Origin: Burkholderia multivorans ATCC BAA-247
Lineage (GTDB): Bacteria > Pseudomonadota > Gammaproteobacteria > Burkholderiales > Burkholderiaceae
Length of the DNA: 64,000 nt
Assembly (NCBI RefSeq): GCF_000959525.1
Contig: NZ_CP009831.1
Span: forward strand, 1,922,001 to 1,986,000
Direction of reading: 5' to 3'
Shown here: piece by piece, positions 9,953 through 12,920 of the stretch
Layout: every line of letters starts with the position of its first letter
Position numbering within the stretch: position 1 is the first letter of the stretch
The notes under the pieces: model-generated
The model's input: the letters and a program-made list of their open reading frames with translations, nothing else
Database searches by the model: none
What the model was told of the DNA's origin: nothing
Position numbers and translations under genes: made by a program

Positions 9953-10018
9953 CTTGTCCACAGATTTTGTTGGCAAGCTTGTGGATATCCTGCGCATCGC
10001 GTCGCTAAGCCGTTGATC
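9953..10018 (+). repeat. paired DnaA-box repeat, copy 1
   Basis: Left box TTGTCCACA at 9954-9962, right box TGTGGATAT at 9980-9988 (box starts 26 bp apart), spacer GATTTTGTTGGCAAGCT, then a tail ending in TAAGCCGTTGATCC. It begins four bases after the qseC stop. Confidence 0.9.
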
Positions 10019-10130
10019 CGACGGACATTGGCACGCGTGATGCAGACGACGCACGCGCGCACGCCAGGATCCGCATCGACGCGCCGCATCGCGCATCGCG
10101 ATGCCGCAACGCGGCCCAGCACGTCGCGCG

Positions 10131-10198
10131 GTTACCCACAGATTTTGTTGGCAAGCTTGTGGATAGGCTGCGCATACGACGCGCAAGCATTTGATCGG
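10131..10198 (+). repeat. paired DnaA-box repeat, copy 2
   Basis: Left box TTACCCACA at 10132-10140, right box TGTGGATAG at 10158-10166 (26 bp apart). Same spacer as copy 1; tail CAAGCATTTGATCGG. Confidence 0.9.
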
Positions 10199-10286
10199 AA
10201 ACGCTTTGTTCGCGTCGCTGAAAATGCGTCACGCGGGTCGTACGTGACGCCGCCCGGCGGCGACCGTCGCCGCCGCGCGCCGCGCG

Positions 10287-10353
10287 CTTGTCCACAGATT
10301 TTGTTGGCAAGCGTGTGGATAGCCTGCGCATACCGCGCTCAAGCGCTTGATCC
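10287..10353 (+). repeat. paired DnaA-box repeat, copy 3
   Basis: Left box TTGTCCACA at 10288-10296, right box TGTGGATAG at 10314-10322 (26 bp apart). The tail ends CAAGCGCTTGATCC. Confidence 0.9.
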
Positions 10354-10427
10354 GAAACGCCTTATTCGAATCGCCGCGAACGCGGCAACGCATCGCTTGG
10401 CCGGTGCGCGCGATGCATCGTCATGCG

Positions 10428-10495
10428 CTTTTCCACATTTTTTGTTGGCAAGGATGTGGATAGGCTGAGCATACGCGCGCCAAGTCGTTGATTGC
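10428..10495 (+). repeat. paired DnaA-box repeat, copy 4 (diverged spacer)
   Basis: Left box TTTTCCACA at 10429-10437, right box TGTGGATAG at 10455-10463 (26 bp apart). The spacer starts TTTTT instead of GATTT but keeps TGTTGGCAAG. The tail is CAAGTCGTTGATTGC. It is the last copy before penA. Confidence 0.88.
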
Positions 10496-10562
10496 ACAAC
10501 GTTTCGATGCGCAGATCACGACTGCGGCACCGCGCGCGCATGCTTCATTCACGGGCGGCCGC

Positions 10563-11471
10563 TCAGCCGAGCGTCGCGATCGCGATCCGCGTCGCGGTCG
10601 CGATCACGTCGTCCTTCGCCTTCGCATCGGCACGCGTCTGCGTGTAGTAGACGGCAAGCACGATCGGCGCGCGCGACGGCGGCCACAGCACGCCGACATC
10701 GTTCGTCGTCCCGTAGTCGCCGGTGCCCGTCTTGTCGCCGACGCGCCAGCCGGTCGGCACGCCCGCGCGGATACGCTTGTCGCCGACCTTGTTGCCGCGC
10801 AGCCATTCGATCAGCTGCGCGCGCTGCGCGGCCGGCAACGCATCGCCGAGCACGAGCACGCGCAGGCTCGCGGCCATCGCCGCGGGCGTCGTCGTGTCGC
10901 GAAGATCGCCCGGCAGCGCGGTATTCAGCTCGGTCTCCCAGCGATCGAGCCGGAAGGTGTCGTCGCCGATCGAGCGCGCATAGGCCGTGACCGCCGCCGG
11001 GCCGCCGATCAGCTTCATCAGCTCGTTCGCGGCCGTGTTGTCGCTGTACTGGATCGTCGCCGCGCAGAGCTCGGCGACCGTCATGCCGGTGTCGACGTGT
11101 CGCTCGGTCACCGGCGAGTAGCTGACGAGATCGGACCGGCCGTACGTCACGCGCTGCTGCAGCAGGCCGGGATGCGCGACGCTTTGCGCGAGCACCGCCG
11201 CGCCGAGCATCGCCTTGAAGGTGCTGCAGAAAGGGAAGCGCTCGTCCGCGCGATGCAACGCGCGCCGCCCGGTCGCGGTATCGATCGCGCAGACGCCGAG
11301 CCGGCCGCCGGCCGCGCGTTCGAGCGCGGCGAACGATGCCGGTGCCGCGCCGCCAGGCGACGCTGCGTTGTCCGTCGGCGCATCGCGCGCCGCGCATGCG
11401 CCGACGGACAACGCGAGCGGCGCCGCCGCGGCAGCCAGCAACAGGATTCGACGTTGAGATGAATGAGTCAT
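10563..11471 (-). CDS. penA: class A beta-lactamase PenA
   Basis: A 302-residue serine beta-lactamase that hydrolyses penicillins and cephalosporins in the cell envelope. Active-site motifs are Ser83-T-F-Lys86 (SxxK), SDN at 143-145, Glu179 in the omega-loop motif RWETELN and KTG at 247-249. The N-terminus has Arg-Arg (7-8) before a hydrophobic stretch and a lipobox-like LSVGAC ending at Cys26, consistent with a Tat-exported lipoprotein as reported for Burkholderia PenA. The gene is divergent from a LysR/AmpR-type regulator, the classical inducible arrangement, and both genes sit inside the paired DnaA-box repeat field. Confidence 0.96.
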
Positions 11472-11536
11472 GGCGAAGGTCTCGTGATGAAAGGGAACGC
11501 GAAACGAATGGGAAATGCCGGCCGGCGAGACAGCAC

Positions 11537-11572
11537 TATCGTCACTTTACGGTTACCCGACAAGCAACGATA
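11537..11572. promoter_or_regulatory. penA-penR intergenic operator candidate
   Basis: The 127-bp gap between the divergent genes holds a TATCGT / ACGATA inverted pair (11537-11542 and 11567-11572). LysR regulators of the AmpR type bind in such gaps. The exact site is inferred only from position and symmetry. Confidence 0.35.
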
Positions 11573-11598
11573 ATTGAGCGCTGCCCAAAGAAAACCTT

Positions 11599-12501
11599 AT
11601 GGCCAAGCTCCGCCCTCACCTTCCGCTCAATGCCCTGCGCGCGTTCGAATCGTCGGCGCGCCATCTCAACTTCACGCGCGCGGGCCTCGAGCTGAGCGTC
11701 ACGCAGGCGGCGGTCAGCCAGCAGGTACGCGCGCTCGAAGAACGGCTCGGCTGCGCACTGTTCACGCGTTTGCCGCGCGGGCTCGATCTGACGGACGAAG
11801 GCCGCGCGCTGCTGCCCGTGCTCAGCGATGCGTTCAGCCGCATCGAGACGGTGCTCCAGCAGTTCGACGGCGGGCGGCTGCGGCAGGTGCTGACGCTCGG
11901 CGTCGTCGGCACGTTTGCCCTAGGTTGGCTAATGCCGAGACTGAAGCGCTTCCGCGATACGCATCCGTTCGTGGAGCTGCGGCTGCGCACGCACAACAAC
12001 GTCGTCGACCTCGCCGCCGAAGGGCTCGACTTCGCGATCCGCTTCGGCCAGGGCAACTGGCCGGCCACGCGCAACGAGCGGCTGTTCGACGCACCGCTCA
12101 CCGCGCTGTGCGCACCCGACATCGCGCGCCGCCTCACGCAGCCGGCCGATCTCGCGCACGAAACGCTGCTGCGTTCGTATCGCACGGACGAATGGCTCGG
12201 CTGGTTCGACGCCGCGCGGCTCGAACCGTGGACCGTCAACGGACCGGTGTTCGATTCGTCGCGGCTGATGGTCGAAGCGGCGATGCAGGGCGTGGGCATT
12301 GCGCTCGCGCCGGCCTGCATGTTCGAACGCGAACTGCAGCTCGGCCTGCTCGCGCGGCCGCTCGACATCGACGTGCACGCGGGCGGCTACTGGCTCACGT
12401 CGCTGAAGTCGAAATCGCTGACGCCCGCGATGACGCTGTTTCGCGACTGGATTACGGCCGAGGCATCCGCGGCCGCCTCGGCAGCTGCGGATGCCGACTG
12501 A
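11599..12501 (+). CDS. penR: LysR-type regulator of the beta-lactamase (PenR/AmpR-like)
   Basis: A 300-residue LysR regulator. The HTH domain lies at about 7-66 (NFTRAGLELSVTQAAVSQQV) and the effector domain at about 90-290. The opening segment LRPHLPLNALRAFESSARH is typical of AmpR-like regulators, which switch between repressor and activator according to muropeptides. Divergent placement 127 bp from penA strongly supports control of that gene. The Ala/Ser-rich C-terminal tail (about 284-300) is probably unstructured. Confidence 0.9.
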   Translation: MAKLRPHLPLNALRAFESSARHLNFTRAGLELSVTQAAVSQQVRALEERLGCALFTRLPRGLDLTDEGRALLPVLSDAFSRIETVLQQFDGGRLRQVLTLGVVGTFALGWLMPRLKRFRDTHPFVELRLRTHNNVVDLAAEGLDFAIRFGQGNWPATRNERLFDAPLTALCAPDIARRLTQPADLAHETLLRSYRTDEWLGWFDAARLEPWTVNGPVFDSSRLMVEAAMQGVGIALAPACMFERELQLGLLARPLDIDVHAGGYWLTSLKSKSLTPAMTLFRDWITAEASAAASAAADAD

Positions 12502-12512
12502 GCGACGCGTCG

Positions 12513-12579
12513 CTTGTCCACAGATTTTGTTGGCAAGGATGTGGATATCCTGGGTATCCGGGCGCTAAGCCCTTGATCG
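12513..12579 (+). repeat. paired DnaA-box repeat, copy 5
   Basis: Left box TTGTCCACA at 12514-12522, right box TGTGGATAT at 12540-12548 (26 bp apart). The tail is TAAGCCCTTGATCGC. It begins 11 bases after the penR stop. Confidence 0.9.
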
Positions 12580-12688
12580 CGCACGATTTACGGCGCCGAC
12601 TCGGCCATCGGGCAGCGCGCGGGGCAACGGCCGAGCGCGATGTTGCGACGCGCCGGATTCCACGCTGAAGCGACATAATCGGCCGGCG

Positions 12689-12755
12689 CTTGTCCACAGA
12701 TTTTGTTGGCAAGCCTGTGGATATCCCGTCGATGCGGGCTGTAACGTCTTGATAC
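12689..12755 (+). repeat. paired DnaA-box repeat, copy 6
   Basis: Left box TTGTCCACA at 12690-12698, right box TGTGGATAT at 12716-12724 (26 bp apart). The tail is diverged: GTAACGTCTTGATAC. Confidence 0.9.
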
Positions 12756-12853
12756 AAAGGGGGAATTTGCGGCGATGCCGCGGCGCGTCAACGCGGCGGC
12801 AGCGGGTGGCGGTTCGCGTGCGATGCGCGGCGCGGGCGCGCCGCGCGATGCCG

Positions 12854-12920
12854 GTTCTCCACAGTTTGTGTTGGCAAGCTTGTGGATATCCTGCGCATCG
12901 CGCACGTAAGGCATTGAGCG
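12854..12920 (+). repeat. paired DnaA-box repeat, copy 7 (diverged spacer)
   Basis: Left box TTCTCCACA at 12855-12863, right box TGTGGATAT at 12881-12889 (26 bp apart). The spacer is GTTTGTGTTGGCAAGCT, keeping TGTTGGCAAG. The tail is TAAGGCATTGAGCGG. Confidence 0.88.

Follow-up and report, generated by a model that had tools for sequence, protein, structure and literature searches.

A tandem array of seven repeat units, each of about 76 bp, was found in a 64-kb stretch of the Burkholderia multivorans ATCC BAA-247 genome (C2:1922001-1986000, the whole of which is hereafter called the window). Each unit carries inverted DnaA-box-like 9-mers (the outer boxes) and, downstream of these, a consensus for integration host factor (IHF), exact in six of the seven units. 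On the basis of the box geometry, the IHF consensus, the conservation of the units, their copy number and their place on the second chromosome, we consider it somewhat probable that the array is a set of modules resembling the DnaA-reactivating sequences (DARS) of E. coli, which would recharge ADP-DnaA. The array is DARS-like rather than a DARS, and the release of ADP from DnaA is a function predicted from its sequence.

In all seven units a forward box I is followed, after 5 bp, by a reverse box II and, after a further 3 bp, by a reverse box III. The IHF core consensus occupies unit positions 53-64, which places it 17 bp past box III. The units are the following:

Unit 1, 9954..10029, + strand: box I 9954-9962, box II 9968-9976, box III 9980-9988, IHF core consensus 10006-10017
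Unit 2, 10132..10207, + strand: box I 10132-10140, box II 10146-10154, box III 10158-10166, IHF core consensus 10184-10195
Unit 3, 10288..10363, + strand: box I 10288-10296, box II 10302-10310, box III 10314-10322, IHF core consensus 10340-10351
Unit 4, 10429..10504, + strand: box I 10429-10437, box II 10443-10451, box III 10455-10463, IHF core consensus 10481-10492, where the full WATCAANNNNTTR matches too
Unit 5, 12514..12589, + strand: box I 12514-12522, box II 12528-12536, box III 12540-12548, IHF core consensus 12566-12577
Unit 6, 12690..12765, + strand: box I 12690-12698, box II 12704-12712, box III 12716-12724, IHF core consensus 12742-12753, where the full WATCAANNNNTTR matches too
Unit 7, 12855..12930, + strand: box I 12855-12863, box II 12869-12877, box III 12881-12889, IHF-like site 12907-12918, with one mismatch to the core consensus (by eye)

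The original prediction had described seven copies of opposed 9-mers whose starts lie exactly 26 bp apart, and this was recovered in every unit; the places stood as well, but each box I starts one base later than it was put there (9954 for the first unit, and so on). It was equally right that each of the 14 outer boxes differs from TTATCCACA at exactly one position and has an intact CCACA core, and that the spacer sequence TGTTGGCAAG is invariant (7/7 units). What it had missed is the third, degenerate DnaA box inside the spacer of each unit, the IHF core consensus, and the extent of the conservation, which spans unit positions 1 to about 76 among 369 distinct sites in the fetched loci. Because the pattern used to select these sites prescribes CCACA, TGTTGGCAA and TGTGGA, those columns are conserved by construction, while the IHF columns are free. 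The frame of the Burkholderia unit reads TTGTCCACA gattt TGTTGGCAA gct TGTGGATAT. With up to three mismatches allowed, the unit pattern matched the window 14 times (seven places on both strands). In 100 dinucleotide-preserving shuffles the expectation was 0.21 matches, and no shuffle attained 14.

The cores of E. coli DARS1 and DARS2 (NC_000913.3) consist of a forward box I, 5 bp, a reverse box II, 3 bp and a reverse box III, and the window units are identical to them in box order, orientation and spacers (9-5-9-3-9). The same geometry is present in the chromosome-1 unit described below, in a Pandoraea-like unit and in one Cupriavidus-like unit (these labels, like the Ralstonia-like and Paraburkholderia-like ones used below, are guesses). 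The DARS box order, the equal spacing of DARS1 and DARS2 and the head-to-head contact of DnaA on boxes I and II are described in PMC5742627 and PMC8682772. By analogy, the DARS frame combined with an IHF consensus suggests a DARS-like action at the array.

The IHF element is also visible in the column conservation. Pattern-fixed columns aside, positions 53-55 and 60-64 (YAA and TTGAT) stand out over the 369 sites as much better conserved than the intervening spacers, and they correspond to the reverse complement of the IHF consensus minus its terminal W. This consensus has been given as WATCAANNNNTTR (PMC4585315) and as TAAnnnnTTGATW (PMC8682772). The core form ATCAANNNNTTR has seven exact matches in the window, six of them in units at one offset and one elsewhere, against 0.38 expected from 50 mononucleotide shuffles. 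When three orthologous units were compared with the 24 of 80 loci that have both flanks present, identity was 0.916 for the core, 0.965 for the IHF bases, 0.801 for the A/T tail, 0.727 for the outside spacer and 0.586 for the inner spacer.

DnaA boxes that adjoin an IHF consensus would also suit an inactivator of the datA type, at which DnaA and IHF promote the hydrolysis of ATP-DnaA, so that replication of the middle of a chromosome-2 arm would switch DnaA off; datA likewise requires IHF (PMC8682772). However, the boxes of E. coli K-12 datA (at most one mismatch to TTWTNCACA) lie at relative positions 28+, 95+, 257+ and 269-, with the IHF site at 160, and form neither an opposed 26-bp pair nor a three-box core, whereas the unit core matches that of DARS. 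We therefore regard such an activity as quite improbable, and an identity with datA was rejected because the units lack the order and spacing that the boxes of datA have about its single IHF site. Among the analogies offered in the original prediction, that with DARS is supported by the three-box order, the spacing, the IHF consensus and the genus-wide occurrence of the units, that with datA fails on geometry, and that with crtS has no specific support, the array being on chromosome 2 rather than chromosome 1.

Eighteen DnaA boxes with at most one mismatch are present in the window, 14 of them within the array span, while 380 kb sampled from the same replicon contained 11. Fourteen one-mismatch boxes in 3 kb could simply titrate DnaA, the strong boxes merely sequestering the protein and their copy number setting the size of the buffer. 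Titration is supported for E. coli by PMC12371093, and the poor box II fits boxes I and III being the sole working ones. Yet the fixed 26-bp spacing of opposed boxes, the 10-bp spacer and the IHF site are all conserved although titration would need none of them, and we consider titration rather unlikely. Outside the array, two more one-mismatch DnaA boxes lie 46 bp apart at 22867 and 22913 in the window.

The inverted arms CCACA and TGTGG could in principle pair in RNA and act as hairpins or terminators. Among 30 sequences no compensatory change was seen and covariation was not above that of shuffles (five of the nine pairs are invariant and thus uninformative), and positions 9500-13400 of the window gave no Rfam match at the gathering score, the best of three weak matches having an E-value of 1.3. 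An RNA element was rejected on these grounds, and we consider this explanation very improbable.

The genome is present in three contigs of 3.43, 2.34 and 0.55 Mb (6.3 Mb in all). The contig that contains the window, C2, carries parA, parB and Rep3-type initiator genes and, at 237,261-238,049, iterons of the published c2 type (sequence from Du et al. 2016, PMC4948915), whereas dnaA is located on C3; C2 was therefore read as chromosome 2. A search with PF10134 for a chromosome-2 initiator gave no match; the initiator gene near the chromosome-2 origin (ori2) of this genome matches Rep3. The array itself was rejected as the origin of chromosome 2: about 650 kb separate it from the iterons and from the Rep3-type, parA and parB genes, and the sampled skew does not change sign there. 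Second iteron clusters were observed at about 133-149 kb from ori2 in three relatives (G002, C3:1847669-1851201; G009, C2:2772081-2775586; G018, C3:143497-147054), and a second cluster has likewise been noted in strain J2315 (PMC4948915).

A profile search of the source genome, in which 150 of 871 candidates were scored, recovered, besides the seven units of the array (E <=1.8e-15), a single full-length copy on chromosome 1 (E 8.5e-8); four further matches were partial (E 0.005 to 5). Thousands of scattered copies, which the original prediction had named as speaking against a role in replication, are not what is found: the 6.3-Mb genome has eight full-length units, seven of them in the array, and a plain interspersed repeat was rejected. 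The scan of the genus that had been proposed there returned the unit pattern (at most three mismatches) in all 65 Burkholderia genomes, the source included, with 3-10 matches each; in 62 of the 65 all matches are on one strand, and a reversed-pattern control gave none. All matches fall in one region in 16 of the 18 relatives for which every match place was listed (out of G001-G019, G019 being listed in part), and the other two, G010 and G017, each have one match on another replicon. Across the family, searched with stricter filters, the profile has matches at E <=0.1 in 220 of 249 genomes and in 19 of 25 genera, where the weak matches (E 0.01-0.1) may be due to chance. The units are mostly single in the Paraburkholderia, Caballeronia and Trinickia records, and single, paired or in small clusters in related complete genomes.

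The position of the array is conserved too. In 16 genomes it lies 536-1004 kb from ori2, at an arm fraction of 0.513 +/- 0.064 (range 0.405-0.689); 17 few-contig Burkholderia genomes had been chosen, of which G021 was dropped as its array place was not listed, and places are rounded. The chromosome-1 unit was mapped in three genomes, in each case at 0.815-0.831 of the arm from the chromosome-1 origin (oriC1). It comprises one unit in the source genome (L163:9999-10076) and three each in G010 and G017 (L246:4307-4647 and L247:4600-4954), and it adjoins a threonine-dehydratase-type gene in the source genome (L163) and in G010 (L246). Arrays on the dnaA replicon of other genera have arm fractions of 0.57/0.56 (Ralstonia-like), 0.32/0.33 (Cupriavidus-like) and 0.59/0.63 (Pandoraea-like).

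Related arrays were identified on the dnaA replicon of four Cupriavidus- and Ralstonia-like genomes (L234, L235, L236, L237), in which units recur every 170-215 bp. The three loci examined for their neighbouring gene (L234, L236, L237) have xseA just downstream of the array, and a core carrying TGTGGATAA is nearest to xseA. A DARS-type core with a canonical box II is present in three of the four genomes, Cupriavidus-like G278 and Ralstonia-like G127 and G195, and absent from G268. In G278 the profile match of one unit spans positions 2-78 (E 4.5e-6), and this unit combines a perfect box II (0 mismatches) with TAAGTGGTTGAT. In G000, G010, G014, G017 and the Paraburkholderia-like G218, the region upstream of xseA still has boxes II and III as a pair with their 3-bp spacer; no box I could be made out by eye in these five regions, and an IHF match with at most one mismatch was absent as well. 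The pair on Burkholderia chromosome 1 (L273, L274, L276, L278) is perhaps a decayed DARS.

A DARS core with a good box II (pattern with at most one mismatch) was also found 5-7 kb from the ori2 iterons in all eight Burkholderia genomes tested, each site having one mismatch to the pattern. Over 16 genomes this pattern gave 18 matches in 13, some of them the same place on both strands and a few of them elsewhere, and its reversed control gave none. In the source genome the ori2-near core is at C2:231306-231335 on the reverse strand, about 6 kb from the iterons (L160, L291), and reads TTATCCACA atttc TGTGGAAAA cct TGTGGAAAG. Its profile match covers only positions 1-47, and no IHF element of the array type was seen there.

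How far box II is a genuine part of the unit was assessed in 18 diverged units (from chromosome 1, Burkholderia G017 and other genera), taken from 48 profile matches. The reverse 9-mer at position 15 has at most three mismatches to TTWTNCACA in 18/18 of these, with a mean of 1.94 and a background of 1.7%, and no other reverse-strand offset in the spacer exceeds 3/18. Several points nevertheless weigh against a DARS-like reading. The forward 9-mer at position 14 is also near the consensus (mean 3.06); the 30 matches omitted were 17 Burkholderia chromosome-2 units, four of G268 and nine partial Ralstonia-/Cupriavidus-like matches; and since the search profile included box II, the result is supportive rather than independent. 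In the window units box II (TTGCCAACA) has three mismatches to TTWTNCACA and the strong boxes are I and III, whereas in E. coli DARS the best box is at II, so the array may not act as DARS does. The full IHF consensus occurs twice in the window, both times in units, which leaves it matched in only two of the seven; in DARS2 the one-mismatch sites are farther from the core than the IHF site is in the units, and none was seen in DARS1. Most of the Ralstonia- and Cupriavidus-like units have two reverse boxes 11 bp apart (by eye) rather than the exact core geometry, and other genera mostly have solitary or paired units, dispersed across the genome. Finally, neither E. coli DARS1 nor DARS2 was recovered with the unit profile (best score 6.4 bits, partial), so that the link to DARS rests on the architecture and on the Cupriavidus-like bridge; sequence similarity was taken as an aid to recognising DARS, not as its defining trait.

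That TGTTGGCAAG is poor as a DnaA box, yet kept in 7/7 units and in most of the listed units of the genus, could point to another protein, or to a DnaA-IHF complex that exchanges no nucleotide, with the array organising or segregating chromosome 2 or controlling nearby genes. Against this stand the location of the window units between converging genes, neighbours that vary between species while the array stays, and a sampled GC skew that has no sign change at the array. We judge this explanation improbable.

If the array acts in a DARS-like manner, DnaA would bind tightly at boxes I and III and weakly at the degenerate box II, box I being oriented against the other two, and IHF would bind 17 bp past box III and bend the DNA. 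The opposed DnaA molecules held on the DNA would then lose ADP, depart and rebind ATP, and the supply of ATP-DnaA for oriC of chromosome 1 would rise. Adjacent copies (seven here, 3-10 matches per genome in the genus) would multiply this capacity. Given its mid-arm place, the array would double in dose when the fork of chromosome 2 passes it, which would tie DnaA recharging to the progress of that chromosome, and the second chromosome may in this way help to set the replication time of the first. The binding of DnaA and IHF, the nucleotide exchange and the coupling between chromosomes are what we infer for the array. In E. coli, opposed boxes I and II hold ADP-DnaA head to head and ADP leaves, and IHF and Fis activate DARS2 (PMC8682772). 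Genes for Hda and IHF alpha are present in the genome, above the family cut-offs, and ADP-DnaA and IHF are therefore expected in the cell. The position of DARS matters in E. coli (PMC5010248), which fits the conserved mid-arm place of the array.

A more speculative extension, which we consider possible but doubtful, is that in Burkholderia the main capacity for DnaA recharging has moved to chromosome 2 as an amplified, IHF-controlled array, that the ancestral xseA-linked core on chromosome 1 has lost box I and the IHF site, and that initiation at oriC1 waits on the dose and timing of the middle of the chromosome-2 arm. If true, this would be a checkpoint from the secondary to the primary chromosome, in the direction opposite to that of Vibrio crtS. 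The timing of multiple bacterial chromosomes is understood in very few lineages, and the search for further replication timers is described as open in PMC13342612, which includes marker-frequency data for Burkholderia. In this respect a genus-wide array of the DnaA/IHF type on a secondary chromosome is a concrete candidate timer. A DARS-like function would also extend DARS-type anatomy to the Burkholderiaceae, in amplified form. A review (PMC5742627) states that the DARS2 spacing is conserved in beta- or gamma-proteobacteria and cites Kasho 2014 for this, whereas Kasho 2014 (PMC4245941) describes the DARS2 core as specific to E. coli-related gamma-proteobacteria; no account of a Burkholderia DARS was found in the available sections of the openly licensed literature searched.

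The genes around and within the array are the following:

7920-8582: response regulator gene, which precedes the QseC-like kinase gene
8579..9949, + strand: QseC-like sensor kinase gene, left neighbour of the array, scoring below the QseC cut-off
10563..11471, - strand: PenA class A beta-lactamase gene, inside the array, passing the PenA-family and Bcc-type cut-offs, a result indicative of the Burkholderia cepacia complex
11599..12501, + strand: PenR LysR-type regulator gene, inside the array
13318..15576, - strand: glycogen-debranching-like gene, right neighbour, also beside the array in G014, G015, G016 and G017

The QseC-like kinase gene adjoins the array in G016 and G017 as well. In G014 and G015 the array has the debranching gene nearby, and penA, penR and the kinase gene were not found there; G017 has both the kinase and the debranching gene. 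The absence of a penA match in G014, G015 and G017 refers to the 12-14 kb retrieved about each array. Since arrays exist without penA and penR, these genes stand outside the system, and the array as part of a penA system was rejected. In the window penA and penR lie between units 4 and 5 (10563-12501), as if inserted into an older array.

Compared with known systems, the array shares with DARS1 and DARS2 an intergenic location, and with DARS2 an IHF consensus (a consensus match) beside the core, at a distance that differs and is 17 bp from box III in the window. It is also mid-arm, as are the E. coli elements at 0.66 and 0.41 of the arm, calculated from what we take to be the E. coli oriC coordinate. 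It differs from the single E. coli core in being a tandem array of seven units on a secondary chromosome. With E. coli datA it has in common the combination of DnaA boxes with an IHF site, but datA is a single locus with other box spacing and orientation. The iterons of the Burkholderia c2 origin are likewise repeats on chromosome 2 and form a further cluster some 140 kb from the origin (PMC4948915), but ctCCCGAAAAacCTCACCTtt is unrelated to the unit and that further cluster is distinct from the array at its 536-1004 kb from ori2. Finally, crtS of Vibrio cholerae is, like the array, a site outside the origins that could couple two chromosomes, and PMC3937223 itself compares the chromosome I site to DARS. 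The Vibrio site, however, is a Chr1 locus to which the Chr2 initiator RctB binds (PMC11711613), whereas the array is on chromosome 2 and carries boxes of the DnaA type.

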